NCBI GenBank assembly: GCA_028287305.1
Contig: JAQBPX010000038.1
Span: 1-64,000, forward strand
Length of the DNA: 64,000 nt
Direction of reading: 5' to 3'
Source of the DNA: Gemmatimonadota bacterium
Lineage (GTDB): Bacteria > Gemmatimonadota > Gemmatimonadetes > Gemmatimonadales > Gemmatimonadaceae
Shown here: piece after piece, positions 10,069 through 54,641 of the stretch
Numbering within the stretch: the first letter of the stretch is position 1
How the letters are laid out: the number at the start of each line of letters is the position of its first letter
The notes under the pieces: model-generated
Databases searched by the model: none
What the model saw: the letters and a program-made list of their open reading frames with translations, nothing else
What the model was told of the DNA's origin: nothing
Program-made: the position numbers and the translations under genes

Positions 10069-10076
10069 GGGAACTG

Positions 10077-10165
10077 CAACAGCTGGAACAGGACAACGGC
10101 GGAGAAGTGCTGGACCGGTGCGGACGAACAACAGGTTGATTTTTTTCGAACTTGTCCAGCTGTTG
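10077..10165. repeat. Inverted repeat between convergent genes
   Basis: CAACAGCTGG (10077-10086) pairs with CCAGCTGTTG (10156-10165) around a 69-nt interior that contains a run of seven T (10140-10146). The 15-mer aactgcaacagctgg (10072-10086) recurs inverted at 49642-49656, also at a gene 3' end. It may act as a bidirectional terminator. Confidence 0.6.
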
Positions 10166-10170
10166 TCCCA

Positions 10171-10189
10171 GTTGTCCTAGCGAGCAGTT
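10171..10189. repeat. 19-bp repeat (copy 1) containing the stop codon of the phosphoesterase gene
   Basis: gttgtcctagcgagcagtt is identical to 25938-25956. In both copies the minus strand reads TAR-stop and ends an unrelated gene. A 16/19 relative is at 38703-38721. Confidence 0.75.
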
Positions 10190-18216: not shown

Positions 18217-18436
18217 AGGGGCGGAACTGCAGGCCCGCAGGCCCGCAGGCCTGCGGGCTCCAACAGGGACACGGTACGCGGCGGCCCCCCGGCCGCCGCT
18301 TCGTCATCCGTGAACATGTTGACTGCAAACCAATGACAAAGGCGGGCGCCCGCAGGCGCCCGCCTTCCCTGTCACTGCTCGAGCCTGCGGGCCAGCGGGC
18401 CTGCGGGCCGTCAGTTACCCGTTTCTCAGCCGCCCC
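18217..18436. repeat. Complex inverted-repeat region between the membrane-protein gene and the DJ-1 gene
   Basis: This gap of about 290 bp holds no gene. Left arm (about 18217-18270) and right arm (about 18366-18436) are imperfect inverted copies built on gcccgcaggcccgcaggcc-type units and ending in caggga/tccctg. Inside are two perfect hairpins: a 9-bp stem at 18278-18299 and a 12-bp stem at 18339-18366. Confidence 0.65.
18339..18366 (-). terminator. Likely terminator hairpin for the DJ-1/PfpI gene
   Basis: A perfect 12-bp stem (18339-18350 with 18355-18366) with a 4-nt loop. On the minus strand it is followed only by a short T run (TTTGTC), so termination is probable but not certain. Confidence 0.5.
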
Positions 18437-25897: not shown

Positions 25898-25918
25898 TGC
25901 AGTGATGCAGTGATGCAG
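25887..25918. repeat. Tandem octamer TGATGCAG x4 at the oxidoreductase stop codon
   Basis: Four perfect copies. The stop codon TGA (25895-25897) is the first three bases of the second copy. Because the unit is 8 bp, gain or loss of a copy downstream of the stop would leave the protein unchanged, while loss within the first unit could alter the ending. Confidence 0.95.
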
Positions 25919-25937
25919 TTGTCCCTGGTTCTCCGCT

Positions 25938-25956
25938 GTTGTCCTAGCGAGCAGTT
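25938..25956. repeat. 19-bp repeat (copy 2) containing the stop codon of the VOC gene
   Basis: Identical to 10171-10189. The 15 bases just upstream (ttctccgctgttgtc) also match, inverted and with one change, sequence at 10092-10106, so both copies belong to a larger dispersed unit. Confidence 0.75.
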
Positions 25957-41461: not shown

Positions 41462-41577
41462 ATGACCGCCTGGAAGGATTTCTTGGTGAGCTTTGAAAAC
41501 TAGCCAATGGATGGCCGATCTGCAAGTCGTTGCTAACGCGGGGGTTTGCGCTGGTTCTGGAGCGCCGGGGCCGGTTT

Positions 41578-41738
41578 CCTCGGACTCACGCGGACTGAAG
41601 GGCGGACGACCGCGGAGACGGCAACTACAACTGCTTTGGGAACGGCACACCGGTCGGGTCCGGGTGCCCGCACAAGCATTCATCAATCAGTTGGCCGTAT
41701 CCGCGGTAGTCCGCCCTTCAGTCCGCGTCATTCCGAGG
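41578..41738. repeat. Long inverted-repeat element (copy A) between rplS and trmD
   Basis: Left arm 41578-41626 and right arm 41689-41738 are inverted copies, with 20 bp perfect (acgcggactgaagggcggac at 41588-41607 with 41709-41728). Between them is a small hairpin around ggcacacc...gggtgcc. The element shares cctcgga, accgcgga, acggcaac and gcacacc blocks with the element at 53527-53800. The right arm contains the trmD stop codon. Confidence 0.85.
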
Positions 41739-42395
41739 AGACTGGCCGGAGCGCGACAGTCTCTCTCCTTCGGCCTTTCGCCACGCCGCGATCTTGGCAT
41801 GATCGCCAGACAGCAGGATCTCCGGCACCACGTGCCCCCGATACTCGGGTGGCCGGGTATAACTCGGCGCGCTCAGCCCACCCTGCTCGGCCCAGTGCGA
41901 GTCGCCGTACGCCGAGTCCAGGTCGCTCATCGCGCCCTCGAGCAGGCGCACGGTGGCGTCCACCACGGCGAGCGCGGCCGGCTCGCCTCCGGTGAGCACG
42001 AAGTCCCCCAGTGACAATTCCTCTGTGGCCAAATGGTCGGCCACGCGCTGGTCCACGTCCTTGTAGTGACCGCAGAGGAGCGTGAGCTCGCTGCCCTGGC
42101 TGAAGCGCACCGCGTCGGCCTGCGTGAAGCGCTTTCCGCGCGCGCTCATCAGCACGATGGGGCTCGTGGCACCGAGCGACTCGACGGCCTCGAAGAAGGG
42201 ACCCGGCTTCATGACCATCCCCGGCCCGCCACCGTAGGGTGCGTCGTCCACGCTCTTGTGCTTGTCGTGCGTGAAGTCGCGCAGGTCCACCACGTGATAC
42301 TCCACCGCGCCCGCATCGCGCGCGCGGCTCGGGATGCTGATCGCGAGCGTCGCGTGAAAGAACTCGGGGAAGATCGTGACGATGTTGATCTTCAC
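41718..42395 (-). CDS. trmD: tRNA (guanine-37-N1)-methyltransferase
   Basis: 225 residues. SPOUT-fold dimer that methylates G37 next to the anticodon. MKINIVTIFPEFF, DDAPYGGGPGMVMKPGPFFEA, LLCGHYKDVDQRVADHL, LGDFVLTGGEPAALAVVDA and YTRPPEYRG cover the trefoil-knot SAM site and the catalytic region. It overlaps rimM by 4 nt. The last eight or so codons (SGQSPRNDAD) are read from the arm of the repeat at 41689-41738, so the natural C-terminus has been replaced or extended. Confidence 0.98.
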   Translation of the reverse strand: MKINIVTIFPEFFHATLAISIPSRARDAGAVEYHVVDLRDFTHDKHKSVDDAPYGGGPGMVMKPGPFFEAVESLGATSPIVLMSARGKRFTQADAVRFSQGSELTLLCGHYKDVDQRVADHLATEELSLGDFVLTGGEPAALAVVDATVRLLEGAMSDLDSAYGDSHWAEQGGLSAPSYTRPPEYRGHVVPEILLSGDHAKIAAWRKAEGERLSRSGQSPRNDAD

Positions 42396-48869: not shown

Positions 48870-49577
48870 ATGTGCGGACGCGTCACGCGCACCGACCCGA
48901 AGCGGATCGAGGCGGAGCTGCGGCGGCTGGCGGCGATCTTCTCCGCCCCGATGCCGATCGAGCCGCGCTACAACGTGCCGCCCGGCGACGTGCAGCTCGT
49001 GGTGCGCGAGGTGCGTGACGATGCGACGGCGGCGCGCGAGGCCGCGTGGCTCAAGTGGGGGCTGGTTCCCTTCTGGGCGAAGGAGCCGTCCATCGGCAAC
49101 CGCTTGGTGAATGCGCGGTGTGAGGGCGCGGCCGACAAGCCCGCGTTCCGCGACGCGATGAAGCGACGACGCTGCCTGTTCGTTGTGGACGGTTTCTACG
49201 AATGGCGCAAGAATGCGAGCGGTCCCAAGACGCCGTTCTATTTCCACCGCGAGGATGGTGCGCCCTTCACGCTCGGCGGGCTGTATGAGCGCTGGCTCAC
49301 GCCCGGCGGCGAGCCGCTCGATACCTGCGTGGTGCTCACCACCGCGCCCAACGCGCTGATGCAGCCGGTGCACGAGCGCATGCCGGTGATCGTGCGCCCC
49401 GAGGACCAGGATCGATGGCTCGACCCCGACCTCAGGGATCCCGCGCAGCTCGGCGACATCGTGGCGCCGAGCGACCCGAACGGATTCGCGGCGCATGCGG
49501 TGTCACGGCGCGTGAACATTCCCTCGGCCGATGATGCGTCGCTGATCGAGCTCGAGGAGGAGCTCAGGCTGTTGTAA
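48870..49577 (+). CDS. SRAP domain protein (YedK/HMCES-like abasic-site shield)
   Basis: 235 residues. MCGRV gives the catalytic Cys2 that forms a thiazolidine bond with abasic sites in single-stranded DNA. The rest of the active site is visible: RYNVPPG (Asn), GFYEWRK (Glu) and HERMPVIV (His). Protein-DNA crosslinking protects abasic sites at replication forks. The methionine is removed in related proteins to expose Cys2. It follows DUF445 by 14 bp with no clear ribosome site. It is followed by a hairpin that separates it from the convergent peptidase gene. Confidence 0.96.
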   Translation: MCGRVTRTDPKRIEAELRRLAAIFSAPMPIEPRYNVPPGDVQLVVREVRDDATAAREAAWLKWGLVPFWAKEPSIGNRLVNARCEGAADKPAFRDAMKRRRCLFVVDGFYEWRKNASGPKTPFYFHREDGAPFTLGGLYERWLTPGGEPLDTCVVLTTAPNALMQPVHERMPVIVRPEDQDRWLDPDLRDPAQLGDIVAPSDPNGFAAHAVSRRVNIPSADDASLIELEEELRLL

Positions 49578-49589
49578 CGACAACGACTC

Positions 49590-49642
49590 GACACGAACGA
49601 GCACGAATGCCCGCGTTAGCGGCGTTCGTGCTCGTTCGTGTC
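49590..49642. terminator. 18-bp inverted repeat between SRAP and peptidase genes
   Basis: GACACGAACGAGCACGAA (49590-49607) pairs perfectly with 49625-49642. The 17-nt loop has no U-run. It lies between converging genes, so it can terminate both or block read-through. The sequence after it (49642-49656) shares 15 nt with the repeat at 10072-10086 and reaches into the peptidase stop codon. Confidence 0.7.
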
Positions 49643-49654
49643 CAGCTGTTGCAG

Positions 49655-50926
49655 TTACTGCGAAATCTTGACTGAGGAAATATCGAGTATCGCGGTCGAA
49701 GCGCCCGCGGGTACATCCACATACAGCACCACGTTCCTGCCATTGATCTCCTTCTGCGTAATGGAGACCGTGCGCGTGCTGCTGCGGTAGGTGCGCGCGC
49801 CATTCGCCTCGTCGGCCATGGTGACACCGTAGCGCTTCGATGTCACGCGTCCGAGCGCGTCCACGAATTCGGCCGCGTCCACCGCGGTGTCCCAGCCCGA
49901 CACCCACGCCAGGCTGTTGCCACCGGCGCCCGCGAGCACGCGAATGCGGTCGCCGCCCCAGCCCATGGCCGCCAGCGACGAACTGTTGACGTCCTTGAGG
50001 TGCTGGTAGAGGAACAGCCGCGTGCCGAACTCGCCCATCTCGTTCTCGTAGAGAACCTTGCCCTGCGCGGCCGGCAGCTCGATGTGCAGCGGCAGGTCCT
50101 TCGTCGCGCCGAAGAACGCCTTTTCGTGCAGCACCTGCTCGGTGGACGTCGGCATCTCGCCGAAGGGCAGCTTGCCGGGCCGCAGGTCGTGCCAGCGCTT
50201 CATGAACTCCGCGCCGCTCAGGTAGGGAAAGAGCAGCGACTCCTGGATGGCCATCGGCGCGTTCGAGAAGCGCGGCATGGCCGTCGAGTTCTCGCGGATC
50301 AGCTCGCGCACGCGATCCCAGCCGCCGGGAATCTTCGCGGCGATGTTGCCCTGCGTCACGATGTTCATCTGCTCGAAGGTCGCCTGCCCCTCGATCACCG
50401 CCTGCGCCGCACTCTGCCGGTCGCTGTAGCCATCGCCCGCCTTCTGCAGCGAGTCGAGGTTCATGTACTGGTCCTGCAGCGCGTGCACCAGCTCGTGCGT
50501 GATGGTCGTGTTGATCATCATGTCATCCGCGCCGCGCCCCTCCACCACGTACAGCACCTTGGTCTGCGGGTCGTAGTACCCGGCCACCTGCTCCTGCAGC
50601 AGGTCGAGGATGAACGGCTTGAGGTGCATGGTGTCGGGGATCAGCCCGAGCAGCTTGAACGTGACCTCCGTTCCCGCGAGCTCCTTCTGCGCCGAGCTCT
50701 CCTCGAACTGCTTCACGAGGTAGGCGCGCACCTCGGCGGCCGACCGCGCCTCGAGCTTGGGCTGCGTCTTGAACTTCACGCCCATCACCTTCTCGATGGA
50801 CGGAATCGCCTCCTCCACCTGGCTGGCATACGGCCCCTGCGCCGCGCCGCTGAAGCGCTTGTCGCAGGCGGCGGTGAGGGAGAGAGCCGCGAGGAGGAAG
50901 GCGATCTTGCGCTGTGCAGGAGTCAT
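49655..50926 (-). CDS. Secreted lipoprotein with HELVH zincin motif (peptidase-like)
   Basis: 423 residues. A lipoprotein signal (MTPAQRKIAFLLAALSLTAAC, Cys about 21) is followed by a mature protein of about 400 residues. THELVHALQDQYMNLD near residue 140 is a HExxH metal site and AQAVIEGQATFEQMNIV about 30 residues later supplies a Glu, as in gluzincin-like proteins. There is a C-terminal beta region (VRTVSITQKEINGRNVVLYVDVPAG). I do not recognise a named family, so peptidase activity is inference from the motif. Its ATG lies 6 nt after TAGACT. Confidence 0.8.
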   Translation of the reverse strand: MTPAQRKIAFLLAALSLTAACDKRFSGAAQGPYASQVEEAIPSIEKVMGVKFKTQPKLEARSAAEVRAYLVKQFEESSAQKELAGTEVTFKLLGLIPDTMHLKPFILDLLQEQVAGYYDPQTKVLYVVEGRGADDMMINTTITHELVHALQDQYMNLDSLQKAGDGYSDRQSAAQAVIEGQATFEQMNIVTQGNIAAKIPGGWDRVRELIRENSTAMPRFSNAPMAIQESLLFPYLSGAEFMKRWHDLRPGKLPFGEMPTSTEQVLHEKAFFGATKDLPLHIELPAAQGKVLYENEMGEFGTRLFLYQHLKDVNSSSLAAMGWGGDRIRVLAGAGGNSLAWVSGWDTAVDAAEFVDALGRVTSKRYGVTMADEANGARTYRSSTRTVSITQKEINGRNVVLYVDVPAGASTAILDISSVKISQ

Positions 50927-52632: not shown

Positions 52633-52716
52633 AGTCTTACCCGGGTTGCCCGTGGTGTAGTGGCGGGAATGGTACTTGCTTTCACGCTCGTTGCCACCCT
52701 GAAGACGAGTGAACCA

Positions 52717-53523
52717 ATGAAACGATTTCTGGCCGGAGCGGCGATCGCCGTTGCAATCAGTGCATGCGGCATCTCCCAGCAGCAGGAAGTGCAGATGGGC
52801 GCCGACTACTCGGCGCAGATCGCGCAGCAGCTTCCCCTCGTGCAGGACCCCGAGATCAACCGCTACATCAATGTCATCGGCGACTCGATCGCCAAGCTGA
52901 CGGCTCGCGGTGACCTCGACTGGCACTTCTACGTGGTGGATGCCAAGGAAGTGAACGCGTTTGCGGTGCCGGGCGGATACGTCTACGTGAACCGCGGGCT
53001 CATCGAGCGCGCGCAGAACATGTCGCAGCTCGCCGGCGTGCTCGGCCACGAGATTGGCCACGTGGTGCGCCGCCACTCGGTGAAGCAGATGGAGCAGATG
53101 CAGGGCGCGCAGGTCGGCGTCGGGCTCGCGTGCGTGCTCACCAGCGTCTGCAACAGCCAGCTGGGGCAGACGGCCATCAACGTCGGCGGCACGGCGCTGT
53201 TCGCGAAGTTCAGCCGCGGTGACGAGGCGCAGGCCGATGAAGAGGGCGTGAAGAACACCATTCGCGCCGGCATCAGCCCCAAGGGCATCCCCGAGATGTT
53301 CCGCATCCTGCTCGACGAGCGCGCGACCAAGCCCGCGGCGGTGGAGGCGTGGTTCGCCACGCACCCGCTCGAGGAGGATCGCGTGACGGCGACGGAAGCG
53401 CAGATCGCGACGTACGACCCGAAGCTCATCAACTCGCTCACGCGCGACACGCAGGCCTTCCGCACCTTCAAGGCGCGAGTGGCCTCGCTCCCGCCGAGCC
53501 CGACGCCGCGCGCCGCGCCGTAG
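52717..53523 (+). CDS. M48-family metalloprotease lipoprotein (BepA/LoiP-like)
   Basis: 268 residues from the ATG at 52717. Lipoprotein signal MKRFLAGAAIAVAISAC, then an M48 catalytic domain with GVLGHEIGHVVRRHS (HExxH zinc site, about residue 112) and a third ligand Glu in DEAQADEEG (about 173). The stretch VNAFAVPGGYVYVNRGLIE is conserved in the family. These proteases act in the periplasm on outer-membrane proteins or act as quality-control factors. No TPR domain follows, so it is nearer to LoiP than to BepA. Upstream in-frame Met residues exist, but the signal peptide fixes the start. Confidence 0.93.
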   Translation: MKRFLAGAAIAVAISACGISQQQEVQMGADYSAQIAQQLPLVQDPEINRYINVIGDSIAKLTARGDLDWHFYVVDAKEVNAFAVPGGYVYVNRGLIERAQNMSQLAGVLGHEIGHVVRRHSVKQMEQMQGAQVGVGLACVLTSVCNSQLGQTAINVGGTALFAKFSRGDEAQADEEGVKNTIRAGISPKGIPEMFRILLDERATKPAAVEAWFATHPLEEDRVTATEAQIATYDPKLINSLTRDTQAFRTFKARVASLPPSPTPRAAP

Positions 53524-53526
53524 TTC

Positions 53527-53800
53527 GTCGCGCTCCACACGTAGGGGTCTCTCGGCGTAACGGCTGAGTTGGTTCCTCGGAGACTACCGCGGAACAAATG
53601 ATACGGAATTCCGCGGACACCGCAACGACAACTGATTTTGGTAAACAGCACACCCATCGAGCTCAAAGCTCGATGGGTGTGCTGTTTCAAAGGCTTTGAA
53701 GTTGCTGTATCCGCGGAGTCCGTATCAGTTCGTCCGCGGCCCTTTCCGTTGGAACCAAGGACGCGGCTACGCCACGAGACCCCTACGTGTGGAGCGCGAC
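53527..53800. repeat. Long inverted-repeat element (copy B), 274 bp
   Basis: Perfect 25-bp terminal inverted repeats (53527-53551 with 53776-53800) flank imperfect inner inverted blocks and a central 21-bp perfect hairpin (53643-53663 with 53667-53687, loop caa). It fills the gap between convergent M48 and PNP genes. It shares blocks and design with 41578-41738. There is no open reading frame of meaning inside. Confidence 0.92.
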
Positions 53801-53804
53801 AGGC

Positions 53805-54641
53805 CTACGGTAGCGTCCTCACGATCTCCCTCACCAGGCGCTGGAAGTCTCCCGTCACGCGATCGGTGGTCTCGATGACCTCCGCATGCGTGATCGGCTG
53901 GTCCGAGAGCCCGCACGCCAGGTTCGTGACGCACGTGATCCCCACCACGCGCATTCCCATCGCGCGCGCCACGATCACCTCCGGCACCGTGGACATCCCC
54001 GTCGCGTCGGCGCCCAGCGTCGCCAGCATCTTCACCTCGGCGCGCGTCTCGTAGGTCGGGCCGAGCAGCCCCGCATATACGCCCTCCTCGAGCTCGACCC
54101 CGACCGTCGCGGCGGCGCGCTTCGCGAGCTGCCTCAGCTCGCGATCATAGGGGTCCGACATGTCGGGGAACCTGGTGTCACCCTCCTCCTGCGCACCCGT
54201 GAGCGGATTGCGGAACATGAGGTTGAGGTGGTCCTCGATCAGCATCAACGTGCCGGGCCTGAAGCTGCTGCGAATCCCGCCCGCGGCGTTCGAGACCACC
54301 AGCACGGGCGCTCCGAGCGCGTGCAGCACGCGCGCCGGAAATCCCGCGAGCGCGGGGTCATGTCCCTCGTACATGTGAAACCGACCCGCGAGCGCAGCGA
54401 CCGCGCGCCCCTCGAGCGTGCCGACGATCAGTTCGCCAGCGTGTCCCACCACGGTGGCCGATGGGAAGCCGGGCACGTCTCGATACGGGATGCGCACCGC
54501 ACCCTCGATCGCCTTCGCCAGTCCACCCAGCCCGGAGCCGAGGATGATTCCCGCCACGGGAACGGTTCGGTCACCGGCGATCTTGCGGATCGCCTCCGCC
54601 GACGCCCTGGCGGCCGCCGCACCATACGAGTGGCCGATCAT
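53805..54641 (-). CDS. punA: Purine nucleoside phosphorylase
   Basis: 278 residues. Phosphorolysis of inosine/guanosine to hypoxanthine/guanine and ribose-1-phosphate. GIILGSGLGGLAK, GRFHMYEGHDP, VVSNAAGGIRSSFRPGTLMLIEDHLNL, LGPTYETRAEVKML and ATGMSTVPEVIVARAMGMRVVGITCVTNLACG are the trimeric PNP hallmarks. It overlaps adenosine deaminase by 4 nt, giving the two consecutive steps from adenosine. It is the last gene of the leftward salvage operon and ends 5 bp from the repeat element. Confidence 0.96.
   Translation of the reverse strand: MIGHSYGAAAARASAEAIRKIAGDRTVPVAGIILGSGLGGLAKAIEGAVRIPYRDVPGFPSATVVGHAGELIVGTLEGRAVAALAGRFHMYEGHDPALAGFPARVLHALGAPVLVVSNAAGGIRSSFRPGTLMLIEDHLNLMFRNPLTGAQEEGDTRFPDMSDPYDRELRQLAKRAAATVGVELEEGVYAGLLGPTYETRAEVKMLATLGADATGMSTVPEVIVARAMGMRVVGITCVTNLACGLSDQPITHAEVIETTDRVTGDFQRLVREIVRTLP

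Follow-up and report, generated by a model that had tools for sequence, protein, structure and literature searches.

The non-coding element at positions 53527-53800 belongs to a family of long hairpin repeats that is specific to the source genome and is found at gene ends. The window in which it lies is 64,000 nucleotides of DNA from a Gemmatimonadota bacterium. We consider it reasonably probable (about 60%) that these repeats form a REP/MITE-like family acting as a two-way 3′ boundary, a role that we infer from the position of the copies alone. The dispersal of the family is shown by its many copies in the source genome and by the empty site in relatives.

The element is flanked on the left by an M48-type metallopeptidase gene (52660-53523, plus strand; alternative start 52669), homologues of which adjoin the purine nucleoside phosphorylase (PNP) gene in relatives, and on the right by the PNP gene itself (53805-54641, minus strand), whose product has its closest matches in Gemmatimonadaceae. 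Because the M48 gene ends at 53523 and the minus-strand PNP gene at 53805, the element fills the convergent gap between the two stops, where a first, sequence-only reading had placed it. The perfect ends, imperfect inner arms and perfect central hairpin described in that reading are all present. The left 25-bp terminal inverted repeat (53527-53551, plus strand; GTCGCGCTCCACACGTAGGGGTCTC) matches the right one (53776-53800, minus strand) perfectly. The outer arms (53527-53576 and 53751-53800) are matched at 84%, and the middle arms (53578-53607, plus strand, carrying the type A words CGGA, CCGCGGA, ACTGA and ACGGA; and 53719-53748, minus strand) at 77%. The central hairpin (53643-53687), which is common to types A and B, pairs 21 bp without mismatch (53643-53663 with 53667-53687; AAACAGCACACCCATCGAGCT / AGCTCGATGGGTGTGCTGTTT). 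The best-conserved end of the hairpin family is GCGCTCCACACGT, and the ends GTCGCGC/GCGCGAC of this element are fully paired. Like a MITE, it combines terminal inverted repeats with a lack of coding capacity.

Nearly all of the 274 bp had been predicted to be foldable, and the element with its flanks (331 nt) indeed folds into a single end-to-end hairpin of −212.7 kcal/mol, a stability reached by none of 100 shuffled sequences (z −18.7). A fold-back scan of the window gave it a score of 78; the next best stretches, the trmD-side element among these, scored 46, and the best stretch in a Markov copy of the window scored 32.

The trmD-side element (41557-41759; z −10.0) is a second family member in the window and belongs to a subtype with the outer arms GCGCCGGGGCCGGTTTCCTCGGAC. 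The blocks said to recur in it were found in part: CCTCGGA, ACCGCGGA and GCACACC are common to both elements in the same order, but ACGGCAAC is present literally only in the trmD-side element, and 53527-53800 has ACCGCAAC instead. The whole genome (4.37 Mb in 39 contigs) was searched with 53527-53800, a second subtype and the trmD-side element as queries, each of which matched dozens of places. The merged hits form 65 intervals, 50 of which are at least 80 bp long and have a called gene on each side. That the element is no isolated case but belongs to a family is thus strongly supported, as there are about 50 such places and not only the two copies. Long palindromes can be produced by assembly chimeras, and an assembly artefact or a chance palindrome might be suspected here; some 50 diverged copies in many contigs, each between different genes, already refute this explanation, independent relatives display the same phenomenon, and the probability left to it is negligible.

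Full-length copies measure 265-317 bp and are modular: the outer arm (GCGCTCCACACGTAGGGGTCTC..GGCGTA) is conserved, the middle module exists in two or more versions, and the central stem (..ACAGCACACCCATCG..) is common to the copies. In type B copies, a different middle module is present on both sides at once, so that both arms switch together. The best explanation is that the unit is the palindrome, that is, two copies of an arm of about 137 nt, opposed across a short loop. Shorter copies in the source genome (L028:3001-3192 and L033) look like internal deletions. A 59-bp minimal palindrome in L033 was considered as an empty ancestor and rejected, since an internal deletion accounts better for its asymmetric loop.

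Several other features of the window fold back on themselves. A separate strong hairpin at 49574-49658 (38-bp arms, 84%; z −6.7) occupies the 77-bp gap between the convergent genes 48870-49577 and 49655-50926, and BLAST gave no membership of it in the family of 53527-53800. The 108-bp convergent gap at 10069-10176 contains fold-back repeated words (GCAACAGCTGGAACAGGACAAC ... CCAGCTGTTGTCCCAGTTGTC) with a central T-run, and main-family arms contain ACAACTG words resembling those in this gap. Another convergent gap, at 25898-25943, is built from short repeated words (TGCAGTGATGCAGTGATGCAGTTGTC), and inverted tandem GCAGGCCC repeats at 18225-18416 form 75-nt arms that are 76% complementary.

The copies of the main family are palindromic, interspersed and placed at gene 3′ ends, as REPs are. 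Of the 50 copies that reach 80 bp, 26 lie in convergent, 21 in co-directional and 3 in divergent gaps, compared to 23, 161 and 48, respectively, of the element-free junctions in the same DNA (Fisher test of convergent versus divergent gaps with and without the element, p = 1.3e-7). Co-directional copies start a median of 7 bp past the upstream stop and lie 109 bp ahead of the next start; the gene calls come from a home-made script based on codon usage, so that individual distances may be inaccurate, although the pattern is a large one. Ten flanking proteins inspected by eye, including SecA, several histidine kinases, a SusD-like and a sortilin-like protein, contained no transposase. The most recurrent flanking gene family, found beside seven elements, includes histidine kinases, which commonly form a large family. 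Selection against insertions at other sites could by itself have left the bias toward 3′ ends, and the chief rival to the boundary reading is a selfish repeat whose copies simply persist at gene ends.

The family appears to be confined to its genome. Its sequence was found neither in 58 relatives nor in a sample of 147 other genomes from the same taxonomic family (a set that partly overlaps the 58), and the 20-mer GACCCCTACGTGTGGAGCGC from its end was absent from 84,980 species genomes, a scan outside which the records nearest to the source genome may fall. The element was not found in plasmid or phage collections; single 15-mer hits in viral contigs were taken as chance, and a plasmid or phage origin was dismissed.

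The convergent PNP-M48 pair is kept in many Gemmatimonadota. In 30 relatives' loci the gap measures only 0-74 bp, so the site is either empty or holds a small stem-loop; a site empty in relatives is a feature of MITEs. L053 (MAG RYN_362), the closest relative and the one whose PNP match is best, has a 394-bp gap with an unrelated 280-bp hairpin (z −13.3). This hairpin is present at no fewer than 30 places in its own genome, was not found in three other relatives tested, and has copies in 11 convergent, 10 co-directional and no divergent gaps. Similarly, L069 carries in the same gap a 132-bp hairpin found at more than 30 places in its genome, and only its GTTCAC-type tandem part, not the whole hairpin, is present in one other genome. 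In L100, where the gap is longer, a hairpin at the M48 end occurs at about ten places, only in that genome. Different genomes, as these three families show, fill the same type of site with unrelated hairpin repeats, and this suggests that gene-end hairpins turn over between genomes. The cross-genome comparison was systematic for the PNP-M48 junction only. Junctions shared by the source and L053 genomes were limited to the PNP-M48 pair plus one other gene out of 20 compared, an overlap too small to be claimed as more than chance.

Repeats of short words, which mostly fold back on themselves, occupy the PNP-M48 gap of five further relatives (L113:4214-4334, L077:4817-4882, L127:4754-4845, L131:1348-1481 and L132:3565-3647), with the words AGACGGT, AGAGAGT, GGATGGTAGAAGG, GGCGGAT and CCGTCCA. 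They possibly represent a widespread, undescribed class of gene-end repeats. The unrelated families represented by 53527-53800 and L053:4920-5178 both reuse CGGA / CGCGGA words in their arms, which may reflect chance, GC content or a shared binding motif.

Classic MITEs carry the same ends as an autonomous transposon and generate a short target duplication. Compared to these, the present family has neither a same-ended autonomous partner nor a target duplication that could be found. First, direct repeats in the flanks were no better than those in swapped flanks (p = 0.63) in 23 pairs, all of the first subtype and a few of them perhaps chance pairs; a looser outer-arm search for the second subtype caught many chance pairs and does not enter this result. 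Palindromes in the flanks were likewise no better than in swapped flanks, with the exception of L023. There, the copy L023:2987-3285 lies between perfect 13-bp inverted repeats (GGAGTCCGGCTCC / GGAGCCGGACTCC), as if lodged in the loop of an older stem-loop. Second, a RAYT/Y1 transposase (Y1_Tnp, PF01797) was rejected as mobiliser, since it had no match in the source genome or in three relatives with analogous families, with positive controls. Third, no reverse transcriptase that could act as a copier is present in the source genome. Fourth, some IS110 elements target REPs, and the source genome has one copy of an IS110-type transposase; this candidate was also set aside, since the element arms were not found near it. 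A larger element with the same ends was seen neither among the genome hits nor near the IS110-type transposase, the families covered being Y1 and IS110-type. The checks that had been proposed thus gave a divided answer: the search of the genome and relatives returned many dispersed copies and an empty PNP-M48 site, which agrees with a MITE-like element in dispersal, whereas neither target-site duplications nor a matching transposase end was detected. Since no mobilising enzyme was identified, the term "mobile" is used here on the strength of copy number and empty sites.

These observations bear directly on the possibility that the family is a functionless MITE, purely selfish and dependent on a transposase, whose 3′ bias reflects the loss of insertions in genes and promoters. 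Its 25-bp terminal inverted repeats, lack of coding capacity, dispersed copies and empty sites in relatives would all be expected of such an element, and the flanking genes that were checked are ordinary. We nevertheless regard it as unlikely, given the 23 flank pairs without target-site duplication, the lack of a Y1 transposase, of a larger same-ended element and of element arms near the IS110-type transposase, and the conservation of arm words far above a uniform-decay model.

That conservation is seen in the arms as fully conserved words interspersed with variable spacers. Columns conserved at 95% or more number 66 against 12 under a uniform-rate model in the source family, and 52 against 2 in the L053-type family; the excess is indicative only, because the model ignores the relatedness of copies. 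In type A, identity is 77.8% between the arms of a single element and 74-76% between arms of different elements; permuting the right arms among elements gave 74.4% (p < 1e-4, or p = 0.003 when the module columns are left out), and part of this within-element excess is expected because the elements form subtypes. The L053-type family has no excess (74.7% within versus 74.8% between elements). Near-equal identities within and between elements imply that every arm is drawn almost independently from a common palindromic consensus, and that pairing is a property of the family which is not tightly repaired in each copy. Such weak maintenance makes it less likely that a perfect RNA hairpin is strongly selected for in every copy.

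A structural RNA had been suggested as another identity of the element, and this suggestion was not supported. A non-coding RNA family acting in trans would accord with the very stable fold and the conserved words; on the other side, the only Rfam matches above the gathering score in the window are two tRNAs, none of them at the element, and no promoter-like site was found for it. Mismatches in the arms comprise 63 G-U and 77 A-C pairs, about equal numbers that give no sign of selection for pairing at the RNA level of one strand; strand-specific RNA selection, tested through this asymmetry, was discarded for both strands. We consider a trans-acting RNA very improbable.

The third suggestion, a bidirectional terminator, agrees with the position of the element but not with its sequence, as the U-tract is absent here in a standard scan and in 14 of 19 copies in a lenient one. 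In its expanded form, this explanation holds that a central GC-rich stem with A/T tracts terminates transcription in both directions and that the arms are accessory. The site between convergent stops and the symmetric central stem (AAACAGCACACC...GGTGTGCTGTTT) speak for it, as do findings in the same gap of relatives, where a classic hairpin of A-tract, GC stem and T-tract lies inside the L053 element, and simple stem-loops accompanied by short T-tracts are seen in L070 and L068. Yet the standard scan detected no intrinsic terminator in 53527-53800, and the lenient scan found weak T-tracts in only 5 of 19 copies of the source family and 6 of 18 of the L053 family. We therefore rate it as a rather improbable account. 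The idea that the central stem is a terminator common to relatives was abandoned, as no such stem occurs in 598 kb of their DNA.

The placement of the copies points to a role at 3′ ends, of the sort established for stem-loops and REPs generally (PMC1590033, PMC3733652). Because a U-tract is missing from 53527-53800 and from most copies, a structural two-way boundary is favoured over U-tract termination. In its place the element would act as REP/BIME repeats do, without being a REP mobilised by RAYT. Under the boundary reading, copies would have spread by a process that leaves no target-site duplication and would persist where they are harmless, directly behind stop codons. Transcripts arriving from both sides would fold into a stem of about 120 bp, which would constitute the two-way 3′ boundary. 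The stem may protect or trim the 3′ end of the mRNA (3′-end protection or RNase III processing), and it may also block antisense read-through between facing genes.

Compared to known systems, the family is REP/BIME-like in place and shape and MITE-like in size and ends. REPs are 20-40 bp long, mostly with stems of 6-9 bp, and occur as singlets, dimers and clusters; those of the GTAG type go with a RAYT (Y1) transposase, and REPs lie mainly between convergent or co-directional genes, less than 20 bp from the upstream stop (PMC3733652, PMC8049555). The family shares with REP/BIME/REPIN sequences its palindromic, interspersed and genome- or species-specific character and its preference for convergent and co-directional gaps near the upstream stop. 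It differs in a unit of about 270 bp that is modular and paired nearly end to end, in place of a 20-40 bp unit with an unpaired GTAG or CGTC tag, and in a genome that has no Y1 transposase. With bacterial MITEs and other small repeats (ERIC, RUP, Correia and RU; PMC2229807), it has in common a short, non-coding and foldable sequence, terminal inverted repeats and intergenic dispersal. It lacks defining marks of REPs (RAYT, tag and size), and of the defining marks of MITEs neither a target duplication nor a partner was found. Stem-loops in general prefer convergent gaps and the first 50 bp past the stop codon, and terminator-like ones are mostly 30-50 nt long, heterogeneous and without a sequence family (PMC1590033). 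The element resembles such intergenic 3′-end stem-loops and bidirectional terminators in these preferences, while here the gap is filled by a repeat family of about 270 bp, usually without a U-tract. The accessible literature contained nothing specific on such repeats in Gemmatimonadota or on long hairpins between convergent genes.

A broader and more tentative idea, which we regard as a possibility with the odds against it, is that Gemmatimonadota genomes each grow their own long-hairpin families at convergent-stop gaps. These would replace one another through a copying process that acts on the palindrome, as the swapping of modules in both arms suggests, and not through a conventional transposase or RAYT. 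REPs have long been established at gene ends, and the palindromic repeats with a known engine depend on the RAYT transposase. Here, hairpin families of about 270 bp are present in dozens of copies per genome, in genomes free of RAYT, and the ends of orthologous genes carry unrelated sequences from one genus to another. Comparing these families offers a clean way to find out if repeats of this kind are selfish, serve as 3′ boundaries or do both, and by what they are copied.
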